Part shown: piece after piece, positions 6,186-29,036 of the stretch
How positions within the stretch are numbered: the first letter of the stretch is position 1
Layout of the letters: the number at the start of each line of letters is the position of its first letter
Virus record (IMG/VR): IMGVR_UViG_3300030012_002010
Location: 1 to 29,036 of that record
Reading direction: 5' to 3' (one strand)
Source of the DNA: a virus
Length of the DNA stretch: 29,036 nt
Program-made: the position numbers and the translations under genes
Notes under the pieces: generated by a model
What the model was told of the DNA's origin: nothing
Seen by the model: the letters and a program-made list of their open reading frames with translations, nothing else
The model's database searches: none

Positions 6186-6203
6186 ATATTGAGGACTCGT
6201 AAA

Positions 6204-6434
6204 GTGATTGAGGTAATAGCAGCAACAGGTGGTGCATTACTTACAGCTTGTTTTGTATCTGTAGGATCAATATCCTATAGAGGTAGACAATCAAGAGATG
6301 ATCTTGTGCGAAATACAACAGCTATTGAATTATTAACAACAAAAATAGATGATATGCACGATGATATGAAAGAAGTGTTTCATAGGCTTAAAGAAGTAGA
6401 ATTAGCAGTTGCAGAGATAAAGCCAAGACGTTAA
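6204..6434 (+). CDS. Holin-like small membrane protein
   Basis: GTG at 6204 with GAGG nine bases upstream is chosen over a TTG at 6117, which would add 29 residues antisense to the divergent gene. The 76-residue product has one N-terminal transmembrane helix (VIEVIAATGGALLTACFVSVGS) followed by a charged coiled-coil (LTTKIDDMHDDMKEVFHRLKE). That layout suits small phage holin-type or lysis-accessory proteins, but holin activity is only inferred. A stem-loop follows the stop. Confidence 0.5.
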   Translation: MIEVIAATGGALLTACFVSVGSISYRGRQSRDDLVRNTTAIELLTTKIDDMHDDMKEVFHRLKEVELAVAEIKPRR

Positions 6435-6437
6435 AAA

Positions 6438-6465
6438 ACCTCTTCCCCTTGGCATAGGAAGAGGT
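6438..6465. terminator. Bidirectional intrinsic terminator
   Basis: A perfect 9-bp stem (ACCTCTTCC / GGAAGAGGT) with a 10-base loop. On the - strand it is followed directly by six Ts, a good terminator for the leftward operon coming from 6.7-11.4 kb; on the + strand the T tail is short (CTTTAG). It lies just after the holin-like gene. Confidence 0.65.
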
Positions 6466-6509
6466 CTTTAGCTCAAAAGTGGAGTATGAGCTACTATTAA
6501 TTTAGCAAT

Positions 6510-6683
6510 ATGACAAAAACAATGCTTAAAGTTATTGAGCCTATTCTTTTTGCTTTTCTCCGTGGCAAAGCAATAAAAAAACTCGCACTTGATATAGTAC
6601 GAGCTATGGTTAAAAAATCAGATAATACTGTTGATGACCGACTTTGCGATATGTTAGAAAAAGCTTTATTTCCGGGCAGATAA
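6510..6683 (+). CDS. Small conserved phage protein (58 codons)
   Basis: A 57-residue ORF, MTKTMLKVIEPILFAFLRG at the N-terminus, then a helix and KKSDNTVDDRLCDMLEKAL. The pattern of an amphipathic/hydrophobic N-terminus and a downstream (D/N)NTVDD helix is shared by short proteins next to holin/lysis genes in marine phages (recollection). It ends one base before the small leftward ORF at 6684. Function unknown. Confidence 0.5.
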   Translation: MTKTMLKVIEPILFAFLRGKAIKKLALDIVRAMVKKSDNTVDDRLCDMLEKALFPGR

Positions 6684-6761
6684 CTATTTACCTAATTTAA
6701 CTTTTACTTTTTTAGTTTTCTTTTTCTTTGACGATCCATAGCCTCTAGTCTGAGTGTGCAT
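6684..6761 (-). CDS. Possible very small basic protein
   Basis: A 25-residue ORF, MHTQTRGYGSS followed by a lysine-rich tail (KKKKTKKVKVKLGK). Strongly basic, so nucleic-acid or membrane contact is possible. It abuts the rightward gene ending at 6683 and would be the last gene of the leftward operon before the terminator at 6438-6465. Could be chance. Confidence 0.3.
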   Translation of the reverse strand: MHTQTRGYGSSKKKKTKKVKVKLGK

Positions 6762-6841
6762 AATAATAATGTAACTAAGCCAAGTATAGCTTTGTTGCCT
6801 TATTAGACCAGTACGTTAGTGTGTGATTGGAGGGACTTGTA

Positions 6842-7144
6842 ATGAATCTCGTAATGCCTTGGTCAGACTGGTTTAATAAACAAGCGAAAAAAAGGCGTAA
6901 AGTTGAACCTTGGGTTTTAGCAGATGTTTCGTTAGAGGAAGAATTACATGTTGAGGTATTTTTACGACATGTTATAGAAACTCTAGATCCAAACGACATC
7001 CCAGATCTTATAAGTGCTTTCGCAAAAGAAAATTATAGACTGGTAAAAATAATAAACCAAGCAGGGGATCATATAGATAAAATAGATCCTATATCTTCTT
7101 CTCCCAAAAGTAAGCGCAATCCTTGGCCCAAACTCCCCCACTAG
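6842..7144 (+). CDS. Hypothetical phage protein
   Basis: The ATG at 6842 is preferred over TTG at 6827 because a GGAGG lies 9-13 bases before it. The 100-residue protein starts MNLVMPWSDWFNKQAKKRRK, then an acidic helical region (LEEELHVEVFLRHVIETL) and a second helix, and ends in a basic Pro-containing tail. No family recognised. The last 56 bases overlap the convergent gene ending at 7089. Confidence 0.5.
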   Translation: MNLVMPWSDWFNKQAKKRRKVEPWVLADVSLEEELHVEVFLRHVIETLDPNDIPDLISAFAKENYRLVKIINQAGDHIDKIDPISSSPKSKRNPWPKLPH

Positions 7145-7403
7145 CTTTACCTTCTGGCATGCCAAGACCACATTCTGCTTTTATAACTAAATGATGTATG
7201 CAATCTATACACAAAGGATGATCTCTACTCATACATCTTGCGTCTGCATATAAGTATTCTGCTTCTATAAGAGCAGGCTCTAATTCTTTTGCTTTAAGTG
7301 GTAAATTTAATTTGCCTTGTTTAGTTTTAATCTTAACTCGCCATACTGTTGGCTCTTCTTCGTAAAGAACCATGCGACCAGCATGGTATCTAAGAGAAGC
7401 CAT
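7089..7403 (-). CDS. Cys/His protein, possible zinc-binding
   Basis: A 104-residue protein. The N-terminal half is strand-like (VWRVKIKTKQGKLNLPL); the C-terminal half holds CIDCIHH, ECGLGMPE and KDCAYF, a C-x2-C-x2-H followed by spaced cysteines, which looks like a metal site. The motif set resembles small Cys-rich phage hypotheticals (recollection). It lies nine bases downstream of the next leftward gene and overlaps the convergent gene by 56 bases. Confidence 0.55.
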   Translation of the reverse strand: MASLRYHAGRMVLYEEEPTVWRVKIKTKQGKLNLPLKAKELEPALIEAEYLYADARCMSRDHPLCIDCIHHLVIKAECGLGMPEGKASGGVWAKDCAYFWEKKI

Positions 7404-7411
7404 TATTAAAT

Positions 7412-7579
7412 TTATACCTCGTAATCATCAGGTGGAGGACTAAGCCAGTATCTTGTTCCATTTATAACCCTAAATACATGATTACCGCAACATACTATCT
7501 GCCCTAAGTTTCTCTGCTGCTGCTTTTGCCTCTGATCGTGTCTCAAATGTTCTGCTGAGATAGACAGTTTTTCCGTCAT
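7412..7579 (-). CDS. Possible small gene overlapping in another frame
   Basis: An ORF of 55 residues from the ATG at 7579; its first half overlaps the better-supported gene at 7482-7667. Only the non-overlapping end (FRVINGTRYWLSPPPDDYEV) looks protein-like. No ATG/GTG/TTG starts just that part, so either this overlapping start is used or the segment was once the C-terminus of the upstream protein. Low confidence. Confidence 0.3.
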   Translation of the reverse strand: MTEKLSISAEHLRHDQRQKQQQRNLGQIVCCGNHVFRVINGTRYWLSPPPDDYEV

Positions 7580-7667
7580 AAAACCAACCTTTAAATTTAT
7601 ATGTAAGACCATAATATATTGGCTGGACTCCAAAATGTCCTTTACAAACGATATGTGTTATATACAA
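7482..7667 (-). CDS. Small phage protein with SEAK helix
   Basis: A 61-residue protein from a TTG at 7667, overlapping the upstream stop by 10 bases. Seen: strands IYYGLTYKFKGWFYDGKTVYL, then a Ser/Arg turn and helix FETRSEAKAAAEKLR. A short beta-sheet ended by a helix in this style resembles small phage proteins that line up TF.TRSEA-type motifs, but no function is known. The composition supports this frame over the overlapping one. Confidence 0.5.
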   Translation of the reverse strand: MYITHIVCKGHFGVQPIYYGLTYKFKGWFYDGKTVYLSRTFETRSEAKAAAEKLRADSMLR

Positions 7668-7753
7668 GATTTACCTTTTTGCCAATACAAAATTAATTTT
7701 TTTAGTTCTGCTATACGTTTCTTGGCAGCTTCTATTTTTTCTTTGTTTGTCAT
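7658..7753 (-). CDS. Very small helical protein
   Basis: A 31-residue ORF, MTNKEKIEAAKKRIAELKKL and a short hydrophobic end. The start overlaps the preceding gene's stop by four bases (ATGA-type), and its stop overlaps the next start, so it fits the chain of overlapping genes in this operon. A short amphipathic helix; no family. Confidence 0.45.
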   Translation of the reverse strand: MTNKEKIEAAKKRIAELKKLILYWQKGKSCI

Positions 7754-7977
7754 ATTAATTTGCAACTACAATCTTTCCATCTAGCCTTTATATACTTAAC
7801 AGCTTTAGATTGAGTTTCTGCATTTGTAGAAATTTTCATAGGTGCAGTTCCAATCCCAACTCCTTTAACAATAAAAGTAAATTTTTTAGTCTTTTTATCT
7901 TTAGGAGGTCTAGTTACACCTTCCATATTAGGTGTCATTGAAAGTACTTCTTTATCTTTAAAGTTCTCTAATTTCAT
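7750..7977 (-). CDS. Hypothetical small phage protein
   Basis: A 75-residue protein: a charged N-terminus, a lysine run (KDKKTKKF), strands TFIVKGVGIG, then a helix (SKAVKYIKARW) and a Cys-x-Cys end. It overlaps the upstream gene by 20 bases and the downstream one by four. No family recognised. Its place after the recombination genes suggests an early accessory role. Confidence 0.5.
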   Translation of the reverse strand: MKLENFKDKEVLSMTPNMEGVTRPPKDKKTKKFTFIVKGVGIGTAPMKISTNAETQSKAVKYIKARWKDCSCKLI

Positions 7978-8260
7978 TATCTACTACCTCCTGTTCTTCT
8001 TTACTAAAGTCTCTTACAAGCATTTTTTTTACTTTATTAACTTTATAATTATGTTTAACAATTATAGTTCTAATATTGTCATCAACCGAATTACTATGAA
8101 GACTTGCGGTATGATTATCTGCATATTGAACAATATGATCATAACCTCTAATATCTCTGTCTAATTGCTTAGCATATTCTTCTAATCTGTTTTCTTTTAG
8201 CTTCTGTAATTTTAACTCAGACCTGTAAGTTCTTTTACCGTTTGTGTATTTTGGTGTCAT
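7958..8260 (-). CDS. Hypothetical basic helical protein
   Basis: A 100-residue, strongly charged protein. It opens with MTPKYTNGKRTYRSELKLQ, a basic helix-prone stretch, continues with a mixed middle (YDHIVQYADNHTASLH), and ends in an acidic helix. The start overlaps the stop of the upstream gene by four bases. DNA contact through the basic N-terminus is possible but not shown. No family recognised. Confidence 0.5.
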   Translation of the reverse strand: MTPKYTNGKRTYRSELKLQKLKENRLEEYAKQLDRDIRGYDHIVQYADNHTASLHSNSVDDNIRTIIVKHNYKVNKVKKMLVRDFSKEEQEVVDNEIREL

Positions 8261-8661
8261 GTTATTTTTTCAAGCTCAGCAATAGCAAGTGAACGTGCTT
8301 TATCATGGATGTTTCTAAACTCGTTTCTGTCTATATATTCTAAAATAATTTGTGAAAAATGTTTATCGTAAATAGATCGAAACAGACTTTCATCGTGATC
8401 CAAATTTATAAGTTGTGATAAAAAAGCTTTGCATACCTGTTGTTTGCGTCTTACTTTTTGATGCCAATCTTTATCGTAATTTTCTTGTTTTTCTTGTTTA
8501 AACTTCTTAATATAATCATCCATGTTTTTTATAGCAGTCATTAATTCATCTTTTAATAATAAAATTTCTGGATTAGATAAAGCTCCAACATCATCTATAG
8601 ATACAACTTTATCAATTTGTTTACTGTTAAATGTTAAAGGCATAGATAAGGATAATTTCAT
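8257..8661 (-). CDS. Hypothetical helical phage protein
   Basis: A 134-residue, mostly helical protein with a charged middle (DYIKKFKQEKQENYDKDWHQ) and a C-terminal helix (HDKARSLAIAELEKIT). It is the first gene after a 93-base gap that contains a stem-loop and a possible promoter, so it may be separately expressed from the SSB-like gene upstream. No family recognised. Confidence 0.5.
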   Translation of the reverse strand: MKLSLSMPLTFNSKQIDKVVSIDDVGALSNPEILLLKDELMTAIKNMDDYIKKFKQEKQENYDKDWHQKVRRKQQVCKAFLSQLINLDHDESLFRSIYDKHFSQIILEYIDRNEFRNIHDKARSLAIAELEKIT

Positions 8662-8702
8662 CCTATTTTAGCTTAATTTTGCTTAAAATCTACTAAAAAT
8701 GA

Positions 8703-8749
8703 GGGGTCTTACATGAAGCGAAAACTTTACAAAAATACTTCATAGCCCC
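8703..8749 (-). terminator. Composite stem-loop after the SSB-like gene
   Basis: Nested inverted repeats: GGGG (8703-8706) with CCCC (8746-8749), and ATGAAG (8713-8718) with CTTCAT (8738-8743). Read leftward, CCCCTCATTTTT follows, giving a weak T tail. Probably a terminator or attenuator between the SSB-like gene and the next unit. A TAAAAT about ten bases before the ATG at 8661 could be the -10 of a new promoter. Confidence 0.45.
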
Positions 8750-8754
8750 AATAT

Positions 8755-9126
8755 TTAAAAAGGAAATTCTTCTTCTTGTTTTTTAGGTGTAGGTGATGAA
8801 AATGAATCATTTGCATCAGCTTCTTCTATAGCTTTCATAGTCTTATAGTCAGGTTCTAAGTTTAGACCAATATATTTTTTACCTTGCTTACTTTCGTTAA
8901 GGTAGCCTGTAGCTCTAATAGTAACTACACCTTCTCCATGAAAGTCGCTATGTTCTGGTTTTGCTTTCTGTACATACTCACATAGCTTAATTATGTCGGC
9001 CTCTGTAATCTGCATAACACCAGAATACTTAGGATAGTTTTTAGAAGAATCGTAGTTCTCTTTGTAACGCTTTTTATGGTCTTCTTCTGTTTGTGAGAAA
9101 ACTGCAAGCGGTAATTTAAAGTCCAT
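8755..9126 (-). CDS. Single-stranded DNA-binding-like protein
   Basis: A 123-residue protein ending in a Pro/Lys linker and the acidic-aromatic tip EEEFPF, closely matching the DDDIPF-type tip by which bacterial and phage SSBs recruit partners. The body has strand-rich segments (GVVTIRATGYLN, KKYIGLNLEP) compatible with an OB-fold, though no standard SSB signature is present. It is a few bases downstream of the HTH gene and one of a set with RecT- and RecE-like genes, which fits a role in covering ssDNA during recombination and replication. Confidence 0.65.
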   Translation of the reverse strand: MDFKLPLAVFSQTEEDHKKRYKENYDSSKNYPKYSGVMQITEADIIKLCEYVQKAKPEHSDFHGEGVVTIRATGYLNESKQGKKYIGLNLEPDYKTMKAIEEADANDSFSSPTPKKQEEEFPF

Positions 9127-9135
9127 AGATAAAAA

Positions 9136-9327
9136 TTAATTAGATTGACGTTTGGCTAATTCTAAATCCTCTATCTCAGCCAACTTATAGAGGATTTTTC
9201 CGTTAATAGTGTAGAAAGAAGGTGGTTTACCTTCTCTTCTCCATCTTTCAACAGAACCAATATGAACTCGCCATCTTTCAGCAAGTTCGCTTGGAGTCAA
9301 AAATTCTTTTTTAAAATCCGAAGTCAT
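9136..9327 (-). CDS. Excisionase/MerR-type helix-turn-helix protein
   Basis: The ATG at 9327 is chosen over TTG at 9351 because a perfect AGGAGG lies seven bases upstream. The 63-residue product has the winged-HTH pattern of small excisionase/HTH_17 proteins: LTPSELAERWRVHIGSVERW (turn and recognition helix), RREGKPPSFYTINGKILY (wing), then an EIEDLE helix. In phages such proteins act as directionality factors or repressors. No integrase is visible here, so a regulatory role is the safer reading. It overlaps the 3' end of the RecT-like gene. Confidence 0.7.
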   Translation of the reverse strand: MTSDFKKEFLTPSELAERWRVHIGSVERWRREGKPPSFYTINGKILYKLAEIEDLELAKRQSN

Positions 9328-9943
9328 CTTTAACCTCCTGTTGTTCGGCAACTATTTCAACATTACCTGTACTAACATCAATAGGTTGTATATCAATCAC
9401 TTCCTCGCTAGTTTGTACACCTAATAAAAGATCAGGGATGTATTGCCTACCAAAAAAAGTAGCTGCTCTTGCTCGAAGCATAATTTCTGGCATTGATTGA
9501 TATTTAGGATTCTTCCTAGTCCAACCTTCTTTTTGTGCCATTTTGATAGAAACTGCTGTACCTTTTACTAGCTTGTTATCTTCTAACCTTATAGCTTGGC
9601 ATTGTACAGATAATGTATCGTCTTTACCAGTAACTATATAGTCAAAGTTCTTAAATCTTCCGCAAGCCATTATTTGACTAGAGATGAAATGAGAACTCCA
9701 TGAGGGTTTGCCATGTATAACATTTAAATTTTGCATGACAGTTAAAGGACTAAGATTCATTCTCTTACTCATCTCAAGTGCAACTAAACAATTTGGCAAG
9801 CCTTGTTGACCTTGATATTGTGTTGGTACAAGATTTGAATCTGCTAAACTTTTTGCTTGCCTTTGTGCAAACTCAAAGGACTCGGTGCTTTGATAGATAG
9901 AGGAATTTCCCTCTGGATTGGTTGTAGTAATTTCAGATGTCAT
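9311..9943 (-). CDS. recT: RecT-family single-strand annealing protein
   Basis: A 210-residue protein. The RecT pattern is seen in order: a helical N-terminus (FEFAQRQAKSLADS), CLVALEMSKRMNLSPLTVMQ, GKPSWSSHFI, AVSIKMAQKEGW, and PEIMLRARAATFFGRQY followed by PDLLLGVQTSEEV. Known role: binds ssDNA left by a 5'-3' exonuclease and anneals complementary strands. A RecE-like nuclease lies just upstream with one tiny gene between, giving the classical exonuclease/annealase pair. Slightly shorter than typical RecT. The acidic end (EVKDDFGF) resembles an SSB-type tip. Confidence 0.8.
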   Translation of the reverse strand: MTSEITTTNPEGNSSIYQSTESFEFAQRQAKSLADSNLVPTQYQGQQGLPNCLVALEMSKRMNLSPLTVMQNLNVIHGKPSWSSHFISSQIMACGRFKNFDYIVTGKDDTLSVQCQAIRLEDNKLVKGTAVSIKMAQKEGWTRKNPKYQSMPEIMLRARAATFFGRQYIPDLLLGVQTSEEVIDIQPIDVSTGNVEIVAEQQEVKDDFGF

Positions 9944-10064
9944 AAGTAATGTCTTTGTAAGTGATGTCTACCCACTCATCACGAGCAAACATCCAAGTTT
10001 TTTCTGTTTCTGGGTCATAAAAGACCATGCCTTCGTATGGGTCGTAAGGAAATTCTTTTCTCAT
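9933..10064 (-). CDS. Small gene between RecE- and RecT-like genes
   Basis: A 43-residue ORF, MRKEFPYDPYEGMVFYDPET and an acidic aromatic rest (WMFARDEWVDITYKD). The start overlaps the RecE-like stop (TAATG) and the end overlaps the RecT-like start, so the three genes are chained and probably translationally coupled. Acidic and aromatic; could act on the exonuclease/annealase pair, but no evidence beyond position. Confidence 0.55.
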   Translation of the reverse strand: MRKEFPYDPYEGMVFYDPETEKTWMFARDEWVDITYKDITYDI

Positions 10065-10897
10065 TAGTAAAGTTGAATTTCCTCATTAGATGACGTTTGA
10101 TCCTTTTTCTTGGTCATCCAAGGAGGTAAGTAGATTGTTTCTATTTCGTTAGGAGTATAGTCTGGGTAAGAATCGTTTTCTTTACACCATAATATTTTGT
10201 CAATAGCTTCATCTACTTTTTTATTGCCTTCTTCAAGCATTTCTGTACTAGCTCTATAAACACCAACACAAAAAGGCGCAGTTTTTTCTATAGCAATAAA
10301 TATAAAATCATATGAATCAAACCCTAAGTTTTGAAGGACTCGCAAATACCAACTAGCTTGAATATGGTAGCCAAATTGCCCTATAGATTTTTGAAAACCT
10401 TTAGGACTTGCATCTTGTGTAGTCTTAAGATCAACAACTATGTTTTTATCCTTAGAAATCCAATCTGGCCTACATTTTGCCCTTATTCCGCCTAAATCTT
10501 CACTAAAAAAGCTTAATTCTGTTAATCCTTCCATGTCATAGATCATTTTAGCTGGACTTGCTAGAAAGCTATGGTTCATATGAATAAGGTTTTCTTCCCA
10601 CTCAGCAGACAATATATTTAGATGACCATGCTCTTCCATCCATTGCTTACCTTCTTTAGTCCTACCATTAAATGCTTTTGGTTTATAACAATATCTGTTT
10701 TTAAATAATTCATTCTCTAAAAAGAATGTATGAACAGCAGTACCTTCTTCCATAGCTTTAGTAGGTACAGTTTCAGCAGTTTTATCGTATAAATATTTTT
10801 TAGGACTAACTAAAGCTTTACGAATAGTAGAAGAAGACTCGTACTTGGTCTTGCCATGATACTCTTCGTTAGACATTACAAGTGGTTTATAAATCAT
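10064..10897 (-). CDS. RecE-like exonuclease (PD-(D/E)XK fold)
   Basis: A 277-residue protein matching the C-terminal nuclease domain of exonuclease VIII (RecE, DUF3799-type). Seen: SSSTIRKALVSPKKYLYDK (N-terminal helix), MEEGTAVHTFFLE, GIRAKCRPDWIS and IVVDLKTT (the catalytic D...DxK), then GYHIQASWYL. Known role: digests one strand of dsDNA, leaving a 3' overhang for the annealing protein. At this length it is the nuclease module without the large RecE N-terminal extension. It overlaps the upstream start by 11 bases. Confidence 0.85.
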   Translation of the reverse strand: MIYKPLVMSNEEYHGKTKYESSSTIRKALVSPKKYLYDKTAETVPTKAMEEGTAVHTFFLENELFKNRYCYKPKAFNGRTKEGKQWMEEHGHLNILSAEWEENLIHMNHSFLASPAKMIYDMEGLTELSFFSEDLGGIRAKCRPDWISKDKNIVVDLKTTQDASPKGFQKSIGQFGYHIQASWYLRVLQNLGFDSYDFIFIAIEKTAPFCVGVYRASTEMLEEGNKKVDEAIDKILWCKENDSYPDYTPNEIETIYLPPWMTKKKDQTSSNEEIQLY

Positions 10898-11123: not shown

Positions 11124-11126
11124 TTT

Positions 11127-14909: not shown

Positions 14910-17072
14910 ATGTCTACATTTGAGTTAGACCGTAGCCAATGGCGGTCATTTTTAGAACTTCTTGGAAAAGATATTCGTAAAGTTCGATTAAGATCATTTT
15001 TTCCAAAAGGTCATCCATTGAAAGAAAGAGATCGTGGTAAAAAATCTAACGCAAATGGTGATTGGATAAAGCATTGTCAAGAAGAAGGAAGAGGTGTCTA
15101 TCTTGTAATTAATGATGGCGAGGATACAGATTCTTCTATAACAGGTTGCCGAGCCTTTTTTTATGAACACGATGATCGGCCTAAAGAAGAGCAACTTTTT
15201 ATATGGAAAGAACTTGGCTTACCAGAACCGTCAATTCAGATTGATACCGGCAATAAATCTATCCATAATTATTGGATATTGAAAAAAGCAATAGAACCAG
15301 AGACTTGGAAACCTATACAAGAAAGATTATTAGATTATGCAGATGCAGATAGAGCCTTAAAAAATCCTTCAAGAGTTATGCGTTTGCCGGGAACTTTCCA
15401 TATGAGAGATGATGGTACTCATGGCGGTATGACTAAAATTATTTTTACTTCAGATAAAAAATATACAGTTAAAGATATAGAGAAATGTTTACCTACAAAA
15501 AAACAACATGAGAAAAATAAAGAGTCTGTAGATTTTAAAGAATATCGTAAAGAAGATTTTGCAACAGTACAAAAAGCACTCGCACACATACCACCTAGAA
15601 CACCCGGCTCAAACACATATCATATGTATCGCAATATCTTATGGGGTCTTATAAAAGCTTGTGAAGATGCAGGCAAAAGTTCTTCTGATGCAATATCGCT
15701 TATGAGAGAACACTCGCCAGAATGGGGAGGACTTGATCAAGTTGCTAGGTCTGGAGGACAAAAAATAGAAGCTAATAGTTTTTGGTACTGGGCAATGCAA
15801 CATGGTTACAAGCCACCAAAAGTAATGAAAGTTATAAATCCAGAAAGTCCAGATAATCCTACATTAGTTCACTCAGATAAGTTACAAAAAATAGAAGCAA
15901 ATGAATTATTAAATCTATTAAAGACTCGTAGAGACAATGGCGAACACGCATTTAGATATAACATATTTACACAACAGATAGAACTAAATGGAGTGCCTTG
16001 TCAGGGGTCAACTTCTATAGATAGATATTATTTAGAACTTGCTAGGCAAGGTTACAAATGCAATAAAGATACAGCATTTGATTGTGTGGTACAGATTGCT
16101 AGAGAATATGAATATAATCCTGTAACTGATTATTTAGATAAAGTTTATAAAACAGAATCACCAGCATACATTGACAGACTCGCAAGTACTTACTTAAGAC
16201 CCGAAGATGCACATTTATCAGAGCCAACTATTTATGACGATATGTTGAAAAAGACATTGATTGCAGCAGTAGCTAGAGCATATAAACCAGAAGGACATAA
16301 ATTTGATAATGCTTGTGTTTTGTTAGGAGAGCAAGGCTCAAGAAAATCAACTTTTTGGTCTGTCTTGGGAGGAGAGTTTTTTAGTGATGGCTTAAGAGAC
16401 ATTAACGGAAAAGACTCGCTTATGATTTTGCATAGAAGTTGGATTTGTGAGATGGCCGAGCTAGAAGCTGTAACATCTAAAAAAATGGCAGGGGAGATAA
16501 AATCTTTTTTATCACAAGAGAAAGATGTTTTTAGAGTTCCTTACGGCAAAGTTACTGAGGAGTTTCCTCGAAGAGGAATTTTAGTCGGAAGTACAAACAG
16601 ACATGATGGTTTCCTAGTTGATGAGACAGGGAATCGTAGATTTTGGATTATAAAATTAGGACAAAATATAGGAATAGAAAATCCAATATATATAGAAGGA
16701 TTGCAAAAAGAAAGAAACCAGATTTGGGCAGGCGCAGTTTTAGCTTTTAAAAATGGCGAGACTACATACTTAAATAAAGAAAATGAATTAAAAGTAAACG
16801 AGGAAAATTTAGATTATTTAATTGAATCACCTTGGAAAGCTGTAATTGAAACTTTCTGCGATACACCACAAAATTATTCTAGAGAGCTTACAACAGAACT
16901 TGTACTATCTGAGGCTATTGAAAAACCGATTGAAAGACAAACCAGATACGATCAGATGCAAGTTGCAACGATTTTAAAAAATTTAGGATACGAAAAAAAG
17001 CGCAGAGGTAGTAGGAGTTGTCGCAGATGGGTCTACATTCGAGACTCGGAGCGTGTCTTAACCTCTGCGTGA
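14910..17072 (+). CDS. Primase-helicase: RepB-type primase fused to VapE/VirE helicase
   Basis: A 720-residue two-part replication protein. The N-terminal region resembles an archaeo-eukaryotic (RepB-like) primase: acidic FFYEHDD (about residue 90), SIHNYW and RVMRLPGTFH. A PriCT-like helical linker follows (about 225-295, with YRNILWGLIKACEDAG). The C-terminal part is a VapE-type SF3/AAA+ helicase: Walker A GEQGSRKST (about 470), Walker B-type SWICEMAEL, and sensor VGSTNRHDGFL with NRRFWII. Known role: primer synthesis and unwinding. It directly precedes an iteron-bearing intergenic region. The leader carries TATCTTT before ATG and no Shine-Dalgarno. Confidence 0.85.
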   Translation: MSTFELDRSQWRSFLELLGKDIRKVRLRSFFPKGHPLKERDRGKKSNANGDWIKHCQEEGRGVYLVINDGEDTDSSITGCRAFFYEHDDRPKEEQLFIWKELGLPEPSIQIDTGNKSIHNYWILKKAIEPETWKPIQERLLDYADADRALKNPSRVMRLPGTFHMRDDGTHGGMTKIIFTSDKKYTVKDIEKCLPTKKQHEKNKESVDFKEYRKEDFATVQKALAHIPPRTPGSNTYHMYRNILWGLIKACEDAGKSSSDAISLMREHSPEWGGLDQVARSGGQKIEANSFWYWAMQHGYKPPKVMKVINPESPDNPTLVHSDKLQKIEANELLNLLKTRRDNGEHAFRYNIFTQQIELNGVPCQGSTSIDRYYLELARQGYKCNKDTAFDCVVQIAREYEYNPVTDYLDKVYKTESPAYIDRLASTYLRPEDAHLSEPTIYDDMLKKTLIAAVARAYKPEGHKFDNACVLLGEQGSRKSTFWSVLGGEFFSDGLRDINGKDSLMILHRSWICEMAELEAVTSKKMAGEIKSFLSQEKDVFRVPYGKVTEEFPRRGILVGSTNRHDGFLVDETGNRRFWIIKLGQNIGIENPIYIEGLQKERNQIWAGAVLAFKNGETTYLNKENELKVNEENLDYLIESPWKAVIETFCDTPQNYSRELTTELVLSEAIEKPIERQTRYDQMQVATILKNLGYEKKRRGSRSCRRWVYIRDSERVLTSA

Positions 17073-17264: not shown

Positions 17265-17325
17265 CTAATAAACACCTAGTCTCACGCCTCAAGACTTGCT
17301 AACATACAAAAAAACAAGACTCGCA

Positions 17326-18090
17326 ATGGCAAGACCATTAGTTTATGACTTCAGTAAAATACAAAAAAGATTTAATGCTTACGAAAAAACTCAGGCTAAT
17401 TTTGCAGGCAAAGTTGCATTAACAAGACTCGGAAAAGAATTAAAAGGTAGAAATGGTTTGATTGCTAGATCATATAAAGGTGGGCATGGCTTACAAAAAT
17501 TTAAAAGTGCAGTTCCTTTCACTCTTAGTAGTACTTTTACAAAACAACGTGGCTTGGCTCTTGATGTAGGAGTAAAAAATTTGATTGAAAAAGGAAACCC
17601 AGCAGGCAAATATCTATATCCCGTTATAGGTGGTAAATCTACAAAAGCGTATGGTACTTTGTTTACACAATATTTAAGAAACAGGAATCTTCTTAATAAG
17701 GCAGATTATCCTTATGCCGTAAGAGGTAACAGTTTGATTAAGTTAGGTAAAAATGGCAGAGTTACAAAATCAACCTATTCAAATACAATGATAGGACTCG
17801 CAAAGACTAGAGATAAAGAAATAAAGGCGAGATCAAAAAAGAATGGAAAAATTCAAGATGCAAGAGTTATAGCTTTTAAAAGTGGAAGGGGTAAATATAA
17901 AAAAGGTATTTACAGAGAACATACACCTAGTTCTGGAAAATTTAGATCATACCTTAAGCCATTATTTATTTTTAAAGATATTCCTACGCAGAAAGGTAAA
18001 TTTACATTTAGACAAAGAGTTAAATTTTTTGCAGATAAAAAAGCCTTTAAATATTGGTCGCAAGAAATAAAAAGACTTGCTAAACAATAA
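17326..18090 (+). CDS. Basic phage protein, possibly minor tail protein Z-like
   Basis: The ATG at 17326 (MARPLVYDFSKIQKRF) is preferred; a TTG at 17296 would add ten residues. The 254-residue protein is very basic. It starts with an amphipathic helix followed by KVALTRLGKELKGR, and ends in a YLKPLFIFKDIPTQKGKF segment and FRQRVKFFADKKAFKYW. The helix and basic pattern is weakly like GPZ-type minor tail proteins, odd inside the replication block. No Shine-Dalgarno is visible; two GACTCG copies lie in and near the start. Function open. Confidence 0.4.
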   Translation: MARPLVYDFSKIQKRFNAYEKTQANFAGKVALTRLGKELKGRNGLIARSYKGGHGLQKFKSAVPFTLSSTFTKQRGLALDVGVKNLIEKGNPAGKYLYPVIGGKSTKAYGTLFTQYLRNRNLLNKADYPYAVRGNSLIKLGKNGRVTKSTYSNTMIGLAKTRDKEIKARSKKNGKIQDARVIAFKSGRGKYKKGIYREHTPSSGKFRSYLKPLFIFKDIPTQKGKFTFRQRVKFFADKKAFKYWSQEIKRLAKQ

Positions 18091-18129: not shown

Positions 18130-18909
18130 ATGCCGACAGTAAATGAATTAGCAAAACAATTTGTGTATCATAATGACCTTTACAGGGCAGGCAGGGCAAT
18201 AATATCTGACAAGGATTTTGATGAAATTAAGAAGGCACTAATAGCCGTAAGTCCTAATCACCCAGTACTAAAAAAAGTAGATGAGGGGTGTGTGTTATCA
18301 GGACTTGGCACTTTGCCTTTCGCAGAATGGTATTCATATCTACCAAAAAATACATCTTTGATTGCTCAACCTAAGATTGATGGTTGTGCTATAGCTGTTA
18401 GATATGTAGATGGAGTATTAGTTAAAGCATGGACTCGTAAAAATATTGATAAAACATATTGCATGAGACTCGTAAAAGATTTGCCGTTAACAATAAAAGC
18501 AAAAGGACTCTTAGAGGTTCGGGGTGAGTTATACGGTCAAGGACTCGTGCCATCTAGTTCACAAAGACTATCTGCTGGTTTTTTGCGAAAAAAATTGCCA
18601 ACAGGTGATGGATTGTCTTTCTGTGCATTTCAAATCTTCAACGGAAAAGGTACAGAAGAATCTAATTTACAGCAACTTATAGATTTGGGTTTTCATACAT
18701 GTGGTTATATAAAAGTAAAAAAAGATGCTGTAAAAGATGTAAAGCTATTGCATAGTAAGTGGCAAGACTCGCTTGTATTCAGTCGCTATCCTACAGACGG
18801 AATAGTTATAAAAGTTTCTAGTAAAGACTTGCAAGAAGAAATTGGCAGAACATCATTAGCACCTAGTTGGGCTACGGCAATAAAAGATGTGTGGAGAAAG
18901 ACTTGGTAG
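18130..18909 (+). CDS. NAD-dependent DNA ligase, adenylation domain only
   Basis: A 259-residue protein with the LigA adenylation signatures: Ia-like N-terminus (YRAGRAIISDKDFDEIKK), motif I AQPKIDGCAIAVRY (catalytic lysine about residue 82), motif III LEVRGELYG, motif IV YPTDGIVIKV and motif V SWATAIK. The OB-fold, zinc finger, HhH and BRCT domains of full LigA (about 670 residues) are missing, as in minimal ligases of some phages. The Ia subdomain that binds NMN appears present, so NAD use is likely. Nick sealing in this form is inferred. Four GACTCG copies lie inside the gene in different frames. Confidence 0.8.
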   Translation: MPTVNELAKQFVYHNDLYRAGRAIISDKDFDEIKKALIAVSPNHPVLKKVDEGCVLSGLGTLPFAEWYSYLPKNTSLIAQPKIDGCAIAVRYVDGVLVKAWTRKNIDKTYCMRLVKDLPLTIKAKGLLEVRGELYGQGLVPSSSQRLSAGFLRKKLPTGDGLSFCAFQIFNGKGTEESNLQQLIDLGFHTCGYIKVKKDAVKDVKLLHSKWQDSLVFSRYPTDGIVIKVSSKDLQEEIGRTSLAPSWATAIKDVWRKTW

Positions 18910-21379: not shown

Positions 21380-21566
21380 ACAAATTGAAGTGACACTACT
21401 TGTAGAAGTAGATACAGAAGATGAGGAGATTTGCCCATCAGGAGATCCATTATTAGAAAATGTTGTTCTAAATACTGTTGATGATGGTTTCTTTATGAGT
21501 CCTGTAAAAGTTTTAAATGTTAAAGACTTGGGAGACTTGCAAGACTCGGAAGACTCGCAGGCATAG
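21372..21566 (+). CDS. Small protein with repeat-derived C-terminus
   Basis: A 64-residue protein. The first two-thirds (IKQIEVTLLVEVDTEDEE, then VVLNTVDDGFFMSPVKVLNV) look like a compact beta protein. The end KDLGDLQDSEDSQA is encoded by GACTTG/GACTCG repeats, which run up to the stop. The same type of tail is found at 26683-26735. Last gene of its operon. Confidence 0.5.
   Translation: MIKQIEVTLLVEVDTEDEEICPSGDPLLENVVLNTVDDGFFMSPVKVLNVKDLGDLQDSEDSQA
21523..21560 (+). repeat. GACTTG/GACTCG repeat cluster
   Basis: Four copies of GACTYG at about 9-11 base spacing: GACTTG twice, then GACTCG at 21543 and 21552, ending in GCAGGCATAGGC. It lies in the last codons of the operon ending at 21566. 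Confidence 0.75.
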
Positions 21567-24422: not shown

Positions 24423-24433
24423 GAGATAAGACA

Positions 24434-24898: not shown

Positions 24899-24900
24899 TA

Positions 24901-24924
24901 GAGACTCGCACGGAGACTCGCAGG
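24901..24924 (+). repeat. GACTCG repeat pair after operon
   Basis: GAGACTCGCA and GGAGACTCGCAGGC at 24901 and 24912, immediately after the stop of the previous gene. Same family as the clusters at 21523, 25563, 26683 and 27226. Confidence 0.75.
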
Positions 24925-24958
24925 CACACAAACAGGGTGGCATATAAAGATAGTACCT

Positions 24959-24987: not shown

Positions 24988-24988
24988 A

Positions 24989-25078: not shown

Positions 25079-25348
25079 ATGACCACTATCTTAACTTCAC
25101 AAAAACAAGAATTTATAGATTACGTCTATAGCTTTTATGGTTCTTATGATGCTATTTATCCCCTACACCAGATGGTAACAGGGCAAAGACTTACAAAAGC
25201 TGACATCAAAAAAGCAATAAAAGATTATGAATTGTTTTTAGATAATCCTGAGTCAACTTGGACTTGGGGAGATGGAGACTCAATAGACAGAGAGAGAGTA
25301 CGGAACATTTTAGAAACAACTTACAACTTCGAGGAGGTACTAAGATGA
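25079..25348 (+). CDS. Hypothetical protein, WGDGDS type
   Basis: An 89-residue protein: helix QKQEFIDYVYSFYGSYDAIY, then TKADIKKAIKDYELFL, a Trp-rich TWTWGDGDSIDRERVR and a helix. Short proteins with the same order occur in marine phages (recollection), function unknown. Overlaps the next start (ATGA). Confidence 0.5.
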   Translation: MTTILTSQKQEFIDYVYSFYGSYDAIYPLHQMVTGQRLTKADIKKAIKDYELFLDNPESTWTWGDGDSIDRERVRNILETTYNFEEVLR

Positions 25349-25563
25349 CTGATTATTACATCATTCACGAAACACCATTCGGAACAGAACGATCTCTCTA
25401 CCAAAAAGTAGAAAGACGTATGGCCGAAAATCATCAAGAAATTGCTGATAGATGTCATGCAATTATTGAGCAAGCTGAAAAACAATATCTCGGTAATTTT
25501 TTCTTTACTGACGATACTGGTTTACAGGTTATGAAATTAACTCACTTAGTAGAAGAGGGTTAA
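25345..25563 (+). CDS. Hypothetical small protein
   Basis: The ATG at 25345 (ATGA overlap, GGAGG before) is preferred over a longer frame. A 72-residue protein, YYIIHETPFGTERSLYQKVE then a charged helix and strand end. No family. Last gene of the unit. Confidence 0.45.
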   Translation: MTDYYIIHETPFGTERSLYQKVERRMAENHQEIADRCHAIIEQAEKQYLGNFFFTDDTGLQVMKLTHLVEEG

Positions 25564-25602
25564 AGACTTGCAGGCACTCGCTAAGAGACTCGCAGGCAAG
25601 CG
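25564..25602 (+). repeat. GACTTG/GACTCG repeats after operon
   Basis: GACTTGCAGGC at 25565 and GAGACTCGCAGGCAAGCG at 25585, starting at the stop codon. Same family as other operon ends. Confidence 0.7.
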
Positions 25603-25625
25603 ATCACACACACAAAAGGGTTAGT

Positions 25626-25652
25626 AAGAGCTAAGTAAAATTAGCTCTTTTT
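25626..25652 (+). terminator. Intrinsic terminator
   Basis: A 9-bp stem AAGAGCTAA / TTAGCTCTT with loop GTAAAA and a T run. Separates this unit from the next promoter module. Confidence 0.8.
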
Positions 25653-25655
25653 CTT

Positions 25656-25746
25656 ATTGTTAAGTATTGTTACAGAATACTGTAATAATACTAATAAGCT
25701 ATAAATCTAAGCTATATTTGAAGTGTTCAAGCAACTATCTTTTATC
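25656..25746 (+). promoter_or_regulatory. Promoter/leader module 6
   Basis: TTGTTA (25657-25662), TGTTA (25668-25672), TACT (25678-25681), TACTAATA (25689-25696), GCTATATT (25711-25718) and TATCTTTTATC ending at the base before ATG 25747. Nearly the same as module 5 with the block fillers exchanged. Confidence 0.65.
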
Positions 25747-26031
25747 ATGTATCACTTTAATCGTTTTACTTACACTTTTCATACTGACCCTGCTCATGGG
25801 TGGTTGGAAGTACCTATTGAATTATTGCAAGAGTTAAATATCTCTAATAAAATTTCAGAATTTTCTTACATTAACTACACCGAAACAAGCGCATATCTTG
25901 AAGAGGATTGTGATGCACCAATTTTATTAAAAGCATACAAAGAAAAATATGGTGAAAAAATAAAATTTGATGAAGAGCATACTAATAATGAAAGTTTTAT
26001 TAGAGAACTTCCTAGCTACTACGAGGTGTAA
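25747..26031 (+). CDS. Hypothetical protein, HGWLEVP type
   Basis: The ATG at 25747 follows the TATCTTTTATC leader; a GTG at 25723 would place the leader inside the gene and is rejected. A 94-residue protein: TYTFHTDPAHGWLEVPIELL, ISEFSYINYTETSAYLEEDC, then a Lys/Glu-rich end. Widespread among phages and bacteria with unknown role (recollection). Confidence 0.55.
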   Translation: MYHFNRFTYTFHTDPAHGWLEVPIELLQELNISNKISEFSYINYTETSAYLEEDCDAPILLKAYKEKYGEKIKFDEEHTNNESFIRELPSYYEV

Positions 26032-26033
26032 TT

Positions 26034-26270
26034 ATGGATGCTATTGAATTTGAACCTAAGTACAAAGTTACTTATCCCTGTAACGAGATGGACTCAAAAC
26101 CAACTGTAAAATATTTCGCCTTTCATAGCGAGATGGAAGATTGGATTACTGAAGAAGTCCAACACCGAATTGACTATACAGTACAACATAGTCCTTTTAC
26201 TGTATCTGAAGAAGAATACAAAGAGATCGAAGAATACGAGTACTATCTCGTCAAAATTGAGGAGCTTTAA
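26034..26270 (+). CDS. Hypothetical acidic protein
   Basis: A 78-residue acidic protein: YKVTYPCNEMDSKPTVKYFA then helices with many Glu. It starts two bases after the preceding stop. No family. Confidence 0.45.
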   Translation: MDAIEFEPKYKVTYPCNEMDSKPTVKYFAFHSEMEDWITEEVQHRIDYTVQHSPFTVSEEEYKEIEEYEYYLVKIEEL

Positions 26271-26273
26271 TCA

Positions 26274-26438
26274 ATGAAATTTTCAGAAAAATACTATAAG
26301 GATCTAAATTTAAGTCCTTATCAGCATTATGTAAATAATGTTTGGTTTATTGAAACTCTCGATAAGCTTAAAGATACTGGAAAATTATTTATTCCAGACA
26401 TAAATAAAACATTTAACAAATTTGGAGATGAAATTTAA
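26274..26438 (+). CDS. Small hypothetical protein
   Basis: A 54-residue ORF: MKFSEKYYKDLNLSPYQHYV, then a helix and FIPDINKTFNKFGDEI. Supported by the short gap before it and TAATG overlap after it. No family. Confidence 0.45.
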   Translation: MKFSEKYYKDLNLSPYQHYVNNVWFIETLDKLKDTGKLFIPDINKTFNKFGDEI

Positions 26439-26782
26439 TGAAAGATTTAAACAAGCTAACTGAAGTAAAAATTGACCTACCGATTTATTGGGCTACTTAT
26501 ATTATGTATGCTGATGAGTCAGGTCTAGAAGATGGCGAAAAAGAAATTATTGATGAAATTCTAGAAGACTTGGAACTTACTTATTGTATTGATGTTCTAG
26601 ATAATCAGTACTTAGAGTTATGCCCACCCAGTTATATGCCTTCTAATATGGGTGGAGATTATTGTACCTATGTTTTCATGGAGGACTTGGGAGACTCGGA
26701 AGACTCGCAAATAGGCGGAGACTCGCAGGCAGGCATTAATACAGTAAAAAATAATCAATTAGAATTATTTTCTAAATCTTAA
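26438..26782 (+). CDS. Hypothetical with repeat-derived C-terminal insert
   Basis: A 114-residue protein. Its body, VKIDLPIYWATYIMYADESG with DGEKEIIDEILEDLEL and GGDYCTYVFMED, resembles a family of small phage/bacterial proteins of unknown function. After residue about 82, DLGDSEDSQIGGDSQAG is encoded by GACTTG/GACTCG repeats, followed by an ordinary tail (NTVKNNQLELFSKS). This tail likely includes DNA added by repeat insertion without breaking the frame. Confidence 0.5.
   Translation: MKDLNKLTEVKIDLPIYWATYIMYADESGLEDGEKEIIDEILEDLELTYCIDVLDNQYLELCPPSYMPSNMGGDYCTYVFMEDLGDSEDSQIGGDSQAGINTVKNNQLELFSKS
26683..26735 (+). repeat. GACTTG/GACTCG repeats inside a coding end
   Basis: GACTTG at 26684, GACTCG at 26693, 26702 and 26720, then GCAGGCAGGC. 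It is in frame within the gene ending at 26782. Confidence 0.75.
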
Positions 26783-26890
26783 TTGTTACAGAATGTTAAG
26801 AAGTACTGTTACAATACTAATAGGTCAAAAAATATGGCTATATTAGGTTCATAGGCAAACAAGTCTATTTATTCTTTATCTTTAAATGCT
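26783..26890 (+). promoter_or_regulatory. Promoter/leader module 7
   Basis: TTGTTA (26783-26788), TGTTA (26794-26798), TACT (26804-26807), TACTAATA (26815-26822), GCTATATT (26837-26844), and TTCTTTATCTTT before ATG 26891. No terminator lies between the previous gene and this module. Confidence 0.65.
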
Positions 26891-27226
26891 ATGAGACAAA
26901 TCGAAAAAGAAATGAACCACGCTATCAGAGTTCAAAAAAAATATTTTTCTAAAGGGAATACTGTAGTAAGAACTTCTGCTGATGGTATAGAGTCTCAAAT
27001 CTACCTACATAACAACCTAATAGGCTGTTATAACCATCCATTAAGACAAATCACTATTTACGATGGTGGCTGGCAGTCTAATACTACAAAATCAAGACTT
27101 AACGCCTTATTAGATGAATTTGCTTTTGGTCTAGGTGTATTTCAAAAGAATTTTGAGTGGTTTATATCAGACCGTTTACAAGATACTGTTTTTCCTTTTA
27201 GATCGGGCTTTACAGTTATGAGTTAG
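26891..27226 (+). CDS. Hypothetical protein, GWQSNTTKSRLNALL type
   Basis: A 111-residue protein: helix MRQIEKEMNHAIRVQKKYF, beta segment (IESQIYLHNNLIGCY), GGWQSNTTKSRLNALLDEF and FQKNFEWFI. A conserved arrangement in marine phages (recollection) with no known role. The stop is directly followed by the GACTCG tandem array. Single-gene unit. Confidence 0.55.
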   Translation: MRQIEKEMNHAIRVQKKYFSKGNTVVRTSADGIESQIYLHNNLIGCYNHPLRQITIYDGGWQSNTTKSRLNALLDEFAFGLGVFQKNFEWFISDRLQDTVFPFRSGFTVMS

Positions 27227-27297
27227 AGACTCGGAGACTCGGAGACTCGGAGACTCGGAGACTCGGAGACTCGGAGACTCGGAGACTCGGAGACTCG
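27227..27297 (+). repeat. Tandem array, 8-bp GACTCGGA unit, nine copies
   Basis: GACTCGGA repeats at 27228, 27236, 27244, 27252, 27260, 27268, 27276, 27284 and 27292; the last is GACTCGCT. No variant units inside. Starts at the base after the TAG stop. Exact short repeats with no spacers, so it is not a CRISPR. It probably grew by slippage. Confidence 0.9.
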
Positions 27298-27310
27298 CTA
27301 ACTTTTTCAC

Positions 27311-27338
27311 ATAGGCTTTTTCAAGCCTATTTTTTTTC
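27311..27338 (+). terminator. Intrinsic terminator
   Basis: An 8-bp stem ATAGGCTT / AAGCCTAT with loop TTTC and a long T run. Lies just after the tandem array. Confidence 0.85.
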
Positions 27339-27386
27339 ACAAAATTTCTTTGTATAATTTGTTACAGTACATTTGTACTATTCATC

Positions 27387-27464
27387 ATGTTACATTTTGA
27401 TGTGATAAATGATACAATTAAAAGATATAAATATTACATAATAAATATACCACAAAAAGCTTAA
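27387..27464 (+). CDS. Possible micro-gene
   Basis: A 25-residue ORF, MLHFDVINDTIKRYKYYIIN then a short end, in the 220-base gap after the terminator. TATAAT at 27352-27357 and TTGTTACAG lie upstream, and CTATTCATC precedes the ATG, like the shared leader. Low confidence; otherwise this stretch is AT-rich with no signal. Confidence 0.2.
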   Translation: MLHFDVINDTIKRYKYYIINIPQKA

Positions 27465-27474
27465 TTTTTTTTAA

Positions 27475-27557
27475 TTGTTAATAAATGTTAAGAAGTACTA
27501 CTTTAATACTAATCATTAGATATTTTTAAAGAGTAATTATTATTACTTATCTTTATC
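27475..27557 (+). promoter_or_regulatory. Promoter/leader module 8
   Basis: TTGTTA (27475-27480), TGTTA (27486-27490), TACT (27496-27499), TACTAAT (27507-27513), AGATATTTTT in place of GCTATATT, and TTATCTTTATC directly before ATG 27558. Confidence 0.6.
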
Positions 27558-27845
27558 ATGTCTAAAACTTATCAAGTTTTTCTAGGTACAAATAAGCCAT
27601 CAGGCGGTACTGTATCTAATCAAGAATGGTTAACCTTTTTAAAACAAGTTGATTCTGTCTTTACTGGTTATACAGTTGAAACCGCTCTCGGATCTTGGAA
27701 AGGTGAAAGGGAAAAGACCTACATTTTGACAGTAATAACTGACGAAATAAAGCAATTAATCAGGATTGCCGAAGATTACAAAATGATTTTCAATCAGGAT
27801 TCCGTATTAATTCAAGAGCAAACAGTTTCACCTTTATTTATTTAA
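27558..27845 (+). CDS. Hypothetical protein, LGTNKP/GSWKG type
   Basis: A 95-residue protein: YQVFLGTNKPSGGTVSNQEW, FTGYTVETALGSWKGEREKT, then IRIAEDYKMIFNQDSVLIQE. The order (fold-back beta sheet with a G-x-W-x-G loop) is weakly like DUF3574-type proteins; unproven. No signal peptide. Confidence 0.5.
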   Translation: MSKTYQVFLGTNKPSGGTVSNQEWLTFLKQVDSVFTGYTVETALGSWKGEREKTYILTVITDEIKQLIRIAEDYKMIFNQDSVLIQEQTVSPLFI

Positions 27846-27850
27846 TTATT

Positions 27851-28006
27851 ATGTTTAATCAACTTTCTTTACCTGATAGGCTTAATTCCTCGGATACTGA
27901 ATCAATATTCTATATGGAATACTTAGAGGAACAAGAGATGGAATTAAAAAAAATCTGCAATAAAATTAGTTTCTTTAAGAAGTTAATCAAGGCAATTTTT
28001 AACTGA
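27851..28006 (+). CDS. Small helical protein
   Basis: A 51-residue ORF starting five bases after the preceding stop: MFNQLSLPDRLNSSDTESIF, an acidic helix, then a basic end (KISFFKKLIKAIFN). Helical, possibly membrane-touching at its C-terminus. No family. Confidence 0.45.
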   Translation: MFNQLSLPDRLNSSDTESIFYMEYLEEQEMELKKICNKISFFKKLIKAIFN

Positions 28007-28033
28007 TTTCAAACAACTATTAAATAATTTTTT

Positions 28034-28059
28034 AACGGCCTTTACAGGCCGTTTTTTTT
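28034..28059 (+). terminator. Intrinsic terminator, copy A
   Basis: ACGGCCT (28035-28041) and AGGCCGT (28046-28052) with a TTAC loop, then Ts. The same 24-base sequence recurs at 28514-28537. Confidence 0.85.
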
Positions 28060-28060
28060 A

Positions 28061-28095
28061 TGCTTATAATACTAATATGCTACTACTTTAAATTT
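28061..28095 (+). promoter_or_regulatory. Short promoter, module-like
   Basis: TATAAT (28065-28070) within TATAATACTAATATGC, matching the TAATACTAATAAGC block of the shared module. The earlier TTGTTA blocks are absent, cut off by the terminator. Precedes a 26-codon ORF. Confidence 0.45.
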
Positions 28096-28176
28096 ATGGA
28101 AGCTTTAATTTTGTTCGCTGGACTTTACAGCATTAAACTAATTATTGATACTGCAAGCGCATATCAAACAAAGTAA
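28096..28176 (+). CDS. Possible small membrane peptide
   Basis: A 26-residue ORF, MEALILFAGLYSIKLIIDTA and a short polar end. One short hydrophobic helix. It follows a module-like promoter directly, which supports it; no other evidence. Confidence 0.35.
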   Translation: MEALILFAGLYSIKLIIDTASAYQTK

Positions 28177-28208
28177 ACCTTTTTTATCAACTATCATTAT
28201 TTTTTATC

Positions 28209-28493
28209 ATGGACTTTACAAGAGAGGAATTATTAACCGAAGCGCACAACTGGTTTACAACTTATGCCGGTACTTATGCACGGCTTTTAAACCGCACGGA
28301 AGACAATGTTGAAAAGGCTTTTTGGGTATTCTCTGACTTAATGCTTGGTCAACATCCCGAAGACGTAACTAGAGACAATAGACACGCTTTTATTAATGCT
28401 TTTAAGTCTTCCAGTTATCTCTCAACTATTACACCTAAACAGTTAGTGGAAGGTGGGGAAGAATTTAGAGAGATAATAGACATATACTTTTAA
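28209..28493 (+). CDS. Hypothetical helical protein
   Basis: A 94-residue protein: FTREELLTEAHNWFTTYAGT, NVEKAFWVFSDLMLGQHPED, then a helix and REIIDIYF. Mostly helical. TTTTTTATC directly precedes the ATG. Flanked by two identical terminators (28034 and 28514). No family. Confidence 0.5.
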   Translation: MDFTREELLTEAHNWFTTYAGTYARLLNRTEDNVEKAFWVFSDLMLGQHPEDVTRDNRHAFINAFKSSSYLSTITPKQLVEGGEEFREIIDIYF

Positions 28494-28513
28494 TCACTCT
28501 TAAAAACGATTTA

Positions 28514-28538
28514 AACGGCCTTTACAGGCCGTTTTTTA
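28514..28538 (+). terminator. Intrinsic terminator, copy B
   Basis: Same stem-loop and T run as at 28034 (ACGGCCT / AGGCCGT). Another AACGGCCTTTTTT half-copy follows at about 28544. Confidence 0.85.
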
Positions 28539-29036
28539 ATGGCTTAACGGCCTTTTTTATTGGCAATGCAAAAGTAGTACTAGAGTACTACAAAAACGGC
28601 CTAGTCATATCAAGCGATTACAGCGAAAATCGGCTGTAACAGTACTTAAAAATGTTTTTGGTGTGATAGTACTAGAAGGCTACTTCGGCCTCTCTGACGG
28701 CCTCTGAGAGTACTCTCAGGCTACTCTTGAAAAGCTACTAACCTTAAAAAAGCTATATTTTAAAATTTTAGTTTTTGGCTTATGAATCAAGCTTAAATGA
28801 TAAGTTGAGCTTATATTTTATCGACTAAGTATAAATACTTAGTCAGTCTCAATTTGAGACAGTTTTAAAAAATTGAGACTCGCAAAATGTTTTGTCAAGT
28901 AAAATTAGAAAATATTTATATATTGAAATGATAAGTTTAGCTTATATTTTAAGCAAGATAGATAAGCCTAGTTTATATGTACAAGGTGATACAAAATAGG
29001 TTCTTTCTGCCTGCCTGCTGGTGGGTAACTTCATGG
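28539..29036. other. Palindrome-rich region without convincing genes
   Basis: No good ORF seen. Inverted repeats: GTAGTACT-AG-AGTACTAC (28574-28591), TTACAGC/GCTGTAA (28618-28624, 28633-28639), the perfect CTGAGAGTACTCTCAG (28704-28719), and GACTAAGTAT-AA-ATACTTAGTC (28823-28844). Five AGTACT cores lie in 28576-28714. Three copies of an 18-base near-palindrome GATAAG..TAG.TTATAT lie at 28799, 28930 and 28961. One GACTCG is at 28877. Could be an operator cluster, origin or packaging-related region. Confidence 0.55.

Follow-up and report, generated by a model that had tools for sequence, protein, structure and literature searches.

Why a short word should stand dozens of times on one strand of a phage genome, whatever the direction of the genes, is the question raised by the hexamer GACTCG in a virus record of 29,036 bases (IMG/VR record IMGVR_UViG_3300030012_002010, positions 1 to 29,036; this whole stretch is called the window). 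The record is from a group of marine phages whose primase-polymerase (PrimPol) is related to that of cyanophage S-2L. By exact count, the + strand of the window holds 34 copies of GACTCG (25 scattered and nine in a tandem array at 27226-27297) and the - strand 0. The original prediction had counted 33 (24 scattered), missing a copy at 5421; its nine array copies and its statement that the complement, CGAGTC, is absent were correct.

The motif, its excess and its conservation

Dinucleotide shuffles of the window yielded 3.2 GACTCG on both strands together, with a maximum of 8. An unbiased scan ranked GACTCG first for strand skew among the 6-mers of the window, and likewise in the related phages G008, G011 and G010. 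The rightward genes carry 14:0 copies (here and below, + to - strand) against 1.2 expected and the leftward genes 4:0 against 0.3, counts that 0/300 synonymous-codon shuffles reached in either class. Neither dinucleotide nor codon composition accounts for the excess, and the earlier argument that codon use is no explanation, made from copies lying in all three reading frames and in leftward genes, was borne out in each of its parts.

The context of 232 distinct isolated sites reads (A)RRGACTCG(C/T)(A/T), with a purine preceding the hexamer in 99%. When ten replication arms were pooled, RGACTCG was found 241:0 and YGACTCG 2:3, RGACTTG 168:15 and YGACTTG 9:16, so the true motif is taken to be RGACTYG. 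In the window it occurs 58 times on the + strand and once on the - strand (at 26860), within a domain spanning 5420-28882 that is conserved in relatives and holds all 34 GACTCG copies; the tail genes at 1-5420 contain zero copies of GACTCG.

At sites aligned between related phages, GACTCG was exactly conserved in 76-77% and GACTTG in 74% of cases, as against 37% for CAAGTC (GACTTG on the other strand), 32% for GACTAG and 0/11 for GACTGG, with a background of 44% for same-composition hexamers and 48% for all hexamers. Where GACTCG was lost, it had most often turned into GACTTG. In the block of leftward genes, whose sites are mostly antisense, conservation was again 76%. By this comparison of sequences, RGACTYG is under orientation-specific purifying selection, and the earlier view of an active motif rather than mere avoidance was upheld, the word being both over-represented and kept by selection. 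An origin of the word as a by-product of mutation, for instance through the copying of micro-repeats or through codon bias, could draw on the existence of tandem arrays; it is nevertheless very improbable, since synonymous shuffles fail to reproduce the excess and scattered copies are conserved far above background on one strand only. The copying micro-repeat that had been listed among the alternatives likewise fits poorly with the conservation, the differing periods of the arrays and the strand-specific selection.

The whole-genome check was moved to the near-complete relatives G008 (52 kb) and G034 (55 kb). The motif recurs across dozens of related IMG/VR phages, and the strand skew of GACTCG was seen in every close relative spanning the replication arm. 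It was also present in relatives whose PrimPol is just 57-65% identical (20:0 in the 55-kb G034 and 13:1 in G104), weaker in G033, G035 and G037, and missing from most GC-rich PrimPol phages and from S-2L and S-LBS1. No comparable motif was found in six phages checked (S-2L, S-LBS1, P-HS2, S-H1, KBS-S-2A and P-SSP7). When all viral contigs were screened for tandem GACTCG, the hits were mostly unrelated contigs, among them L374, which is consistent with in-frame coding repeats; no independent case lacking the replication module emerged.

Both orientations were met in several relatives: G024 carries 3:5, G028 and G029 have three minus sites each, and G033 also shows both. These relatives bear on the lead idea of the original prediction, that one-way sites evade a type III restriction enzyme as those of T7 evade EcoP15I. 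The single orientation in the window would suit such evasion, but the relatives with both orientations would contain head-to-head pairs open to cutting and already contradict it; together with the strong over-representation, the selection for position, the tandem amplification and the restriction to half of the genome, they leave the idea with practically no chance of being right. What stood of the earlier interpretation is thus the active, oriented motif, with a Chi-like signal among its alternatives.

The individual copies in the window, all on the + strand, were located by exact count. Copies antisense to leftward genes lie at 5421-5426, at 9879-9884 in recT, and at 10337-10342 and 10836-10841 in the exonuclease gene; another lies at 6194-6199. 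Within primpol they are found at 15923-15928 (same offset in G008, G011 and G003), 16177-16182 (offset also shared by G010 and G012, relatives at 83% identity), 16413-16418 and 17043-17048, followed by copies at 17318-17323, 17426-17431 and 17795-17800 and by four in the ligase gene (18432-18437, 18467-18472, 18542-18547 and 18766-18771). Intergenic clusters of two occupy 21543-21557 and 24903-24920, a single intergenic copy lies at 25587-25592, three copies stand near the 3' end of a small gene (26693-26725), and one is found right of the array at 28877-28882. As separate observations, TGCGGG and its complement are in strong excess on both strands of G010 (L027, L028), at 14:12 where about 1 would be expected, and so differ from the one-way motif, and TATTAAA occurs 6:0 in GC-rich cyanophage S-2L (L040), where none is expected, and likely marks promoters.

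Confinement to the replication arm and the tandem array

Densities were pooled over 20 records and are given per kb. The structural arm showed neither excess nor skew of GACTCG (0.05:0.07), whereas the replication arm reached 0.65:0.03 in its block of mostly leftward genes and 1.20:0.07 in its rightward block. The one-way rule is confined to the replication half. The pooled leftward-gene block carries 76:3 copies, about one fifth of the counted sites, and because the + bias holds in this block too, the orientation of the motif is independent of gene direction. Most scattered copies fall within coding sequence. In 2-kb bins the density is uneven, low over the gene of the superfamily 2 (SF2) helicase, with a peak over the primpol and ligase genes, and at about 10-12 kb to the left of where the helicase starts it has dropped to the background level. 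Five opposite-orientation copies of G024 (L061), without counterpart in most other relatives, lie left of the arm (0:5), near where its + sites begin; a flip of orientation left of the arm, hinted at by this genome, proved not to be general (pooled left arms, 11:14).

The tandem array of the window consists of nine copies of GAGACTCG with a period of 8 (27226-27297, + strand), and arrays stand at the equivalent place in relatives, with periods of 7, 8, 11, 16 or 24 bp or with alternating 10/12 bp. In most records reaching that far, the array is found near the right end of the replication arm, at a matching map position. Arrays at a matching place with unrelated periods argue that the copies matter and the spacing does not. 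In the near-complete genomes G034 and G008, the terminase genes lie at the start of the contig and the array 3.2 and 1.8 kb, respectively, from the opposite end, an arrangement that, by analogy, resembles lambda-like maps.

Directly after the array follows a hairpin resembling an intrinsic terminator (ATAGGCTTTTTCAAGCCTAT) with a run of T (27311-27338, + strand), and after it an intergenic stretch of about 80% AT extending to about 27550; in G008, G011 and G003, too, a similar hairpin comes after the array. In the window, the array forms the 3' end of a rightward operon, with the hairpin directly following.

This arrangement would suit a polar transcription signal (an RNA element, a roadblock or a stoperator-like site) acting on a single long transcript that runs rightward as far as array and terminator. 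The array directly precedes the terminator-like hairpin, and stoperators are likewise asymmetric, numerous and oriented (PMC6550527). However, the leftward block holds about one fifth of the counted sites, which are mostly antisense and as well conserved as the others, and the scattered copies are mainly intragenic; neither a repressor nor an integrase was recognised, though no systematic search was made. A transcription signal is accordingly an improbable account of the motif.

Candidate readers and a switched sister lineage

The host group is probably marine cyanobacteria, because the window gene at 2965-3591 matches almost only cyanophages and the relative G020 has an IMG genome number from a range in which Prochlorococcus single cells also occur. 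Stretches of 400 kb were taken from each of three Cyanobiaceae genomes, two Prochlorococcus-like (32% GC) and one relative (38% GC). They contained GACTCG 11:14, 17:9 and 20:22, at Markov expectation, although the exact host may differ from these genomes. No consistent skew was seen in 50-kb bins of the 400-kb stretches, nor in near-complete position lists, and the ori-to-ter orientation that characterizes host KOPS was not found in the Cyanobiaceae genomes tested. The reversed control outnumbered GACTCG in 61/61 genomes of the family searched, and P-HS2, a Prochlorococcus phage, is without the motif. A Chi site for a host RecBCD-like enzyme, or a borrowed host motif of the KOPS type, would explain the orientation and a placement from ori to cos like that of Chi in lambdoid phages (PMC3784561), and the change of word in the G036 lineage described below could reflect a different host. 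Against it stand the unenriched and unskewed genomes of the host group and the lack of the motif in P-HS2, which make a phage-encoded reader likelier than host Chi or KOPS and the host-borne signal itself quite unlikely.

Two candidate readers are encoded in the window, one of them with a partner protein. A gene for an ExoVIII (RecE)-like exonuclease (Pfam DUF3799; PHROG exonuclease VIII) lies at 10064-10897 on the - strand and that of its partner, a RecT-like annealing protein (PHROG 561), at 9311-9943 on the same strand; the + strand encodes a primase-polymerase with a VapE-like helicase domain, a relative of the S-2L PrimPol, at 14910-17072. The ExoVIII-like and RecT-like genes are conserved in motif carriers, so that a gene pair of the lambda-exonuclease type, with predicted processivity, is present. 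The exonuclease with RecT, and the PrimPol, would be the natural phage-encoded candidates, and comparison of their sequences did not decide between them.

The sequences show that RGACTYG keeps to one strand regardless of how the genes are oriented, is restricted to the replication arm, is tandemly amplified near the terminase-side right end of the map and is held in one orientation by purifying selection. It is tentatively read as a phage-specific polar signal with Chi-like logic, acted on by a candidate reader moving leftward from the terminase-side right end, a reading given a somewhat less than even chance of being correct. An enzyme would enter at the free right end left by packaging cleavage, travel leftward and read RGACTYG, each copy giving it some chance to pause or switch; since each copy would have some chance of effect, many copies and arrays of any spacing would be favoured. 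With lower confidence, the reader would be phage-encoded, an ExoVIII-like exonuclease assisted by RecT being the most plausible choice; it could then limit resection of the right arm at the motif and hand over to annealing, which is put forward with similar caution. Many copies on one strand, arrays of any spacing close to the packaging end and the lack of the word in the other arm are compatible with a processive enzyme that starts from the right end. In lambdoid phages, Chi is concentrated between ori and cos (PMC3784561), and lambda exonuclease pauses strand-specifically at GGCGATTCT, a motif found in the left cos (PMC7496540). The + orientation of the motif in the window also has a counterpart in lambda. 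There, active Chi is read from the free right cos end. In the open-licence literature, no paper with the GACTCG word in a phage context and no polar code of a phage's own were found, which is weak evidence of absence.

Several points weigh against such an exonuclease signal. Array aside, the density of copies peaks over primpol and ligase and not at the extreme right end, and the right end and the order of first entry were inferred from gene order and not from mapped termini. Of the proteins that carriers share, the exonuclease ranks with the less conserved (down to 36%), which sits uneasily with a conserved target. In the switched lineage, private substitutions at conserved columns single out no protein, and the reader is so far represented by candidate proteins.

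The main rival reading sees in the motif template sites for the PrimPol, used for priming or helicase loading on one template strand, with the array and the AT-rich stretch as replication origin. It would account for the strand specificity, and the phage encodes a PrimPol that carriers keep at good identity (57% upward) and that has a relative in S-2L; the succession of the array and intergenic DNA of about 80% AT also suits it. The S-2L enzyme did not prime on M13, for which its authors suspected an incompatible template sequence (PMC8065100), and NrS-1 PrimPol requires an 8-nt template motif (PMC8718748); both observations were counted in favour. The NrS-1 motif, which has only two copies, on opposite strands (PMC7102993), was counted against. 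Lagging-strand sites would moreover be expected genome-wide, yet the structural arm is without GACTCG excess or skew, and S-2L and S-LBS1 lack a skew of GACTYG. Template sites are therefore considered a serious but rather unlikely explanation.

The sister phage G036 has a PrimPol 66% identical to that of the window, yet shows no GACTCG skew. Instead, GTTCTTG occurs 17:0 over the same arm and 2:5 elsewhere, with four copies at the place of the other phages' array. Three further records with a similar exonuclease repeat the pattern (8:0, 10:0 and 5:2), and GTTCTTG was conserved in 19/31 aligned cases and above the all-hexamer background in 4/4 pairs, the numbers being small. Such a change of word within an unchanged architecture points to a code whose reader is itself able to change. 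Identities of the PrimPol domain do not set G036 apart from carriers. Identity matrices had placed G036 outside the carriers mainly for the exonuclease and the ligase, but this argument for either as reader was mostly lost, because the distant outgroups L292, G013 and G014 carry GACTCG too and the word, judging from its distribution, is probably ancestral. These phages may possess a lineage-specific polar code, in which a phage enzyme reads RGACTYG, or a word of the GTTCTTG type, one way, marking the replication arm as self to the phage's machinery for end processing or replication, independently of host Chi; the chance that this is so is put at close to one half, though below it.

Other features were noted beside the switch. 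At 19.7-20.6 kb of G036, the adenylation-domain NAD ligase is 38-40% identical to those of carriers, farther than the outgroups, as if a foreign allele had taken its place. TCCCCGA occurs 7:0 in G035 (L158; 0.1 expected) and 3:1 in G033 (L145-L147), a group in which scattered GACTCG is weak and the array is kept in G033, and is possibly another word in transition. In G037, a cluster of degenerate 44-bp repeats in which CCATGCC and CCGAGCC abound lies upstream of the exonuclease gene (about 26.2-27.0 kb when oriented by PrimPol; 13.2-13.5 kb of L148). Elsewhere in the window, a 104-amino-acid, cysteine-containing protein whose family was not recognised is encoded at 7089-7403 (- strand); it is 79-99% conserved in close and mid-distance relatives, while its flanking genes differ widely among them, and has no match in the phage collection.

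Comparison with known systems

Chi, KOPS and other polar words have mainly been described as codes of the host, which phages either use or evade. If correctly interpreted, a phage family whose own word is dense, one-way and under selection, next to a sister lineage of like layout but with another word, would amount to a natural switch of specificity. Two questions become directly testable: whether a phage RecE/RecT pair obeys self-encoded Chi-like signals, and which template word PrimPols of the S-2L type need to prime, a point left open by the S-2L authors.

The EcoP15I sites of T7, brought up by the original prediction, are also all in one orientation, but evasion predicts no excess, arrays or conservation, all three of which were seen in the window family. 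The stoperators of cluster A mycobacteriophages come closer, with 20-30 asymmetric, oriented sites per genome and motif variants between relatives; they follow the direction of transcription, whereas the orientation in the window ignores gene direction and its scattered copies are mostly intragenic. The TTTGGTTA sequence of NrS-1 PrimPol is a specific template word of similar length used by a phage primase-polymerase, and a replicase of the same general type is encoded in the window; it has two copies on opposite strands, as opposed to dozens on one strand. The lambda exonuclease pause motif GGCGATTCT offers a strand-specific sequence that slows a phage exonuclease of a related two-component recombinase type. 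It is known at the left cos, whereas the window has dozens of selected copies, known from sequence. Lambdoid Chi (GCTGGTGG, read by host RecBCD) shares with the window word that it is short, asymmetric, over-represented and located between the replication region and the packaging end, and the orientation in the window fits an enzyme entering at the right end. Unlike lambdoid Chi, the word is unenriched and unskewed in the probable host group, shows a near-absolute strand bias, forms tandem arrays and is swapped between sister phages, and the phage of the window encodes its own exonuclease and annealase.

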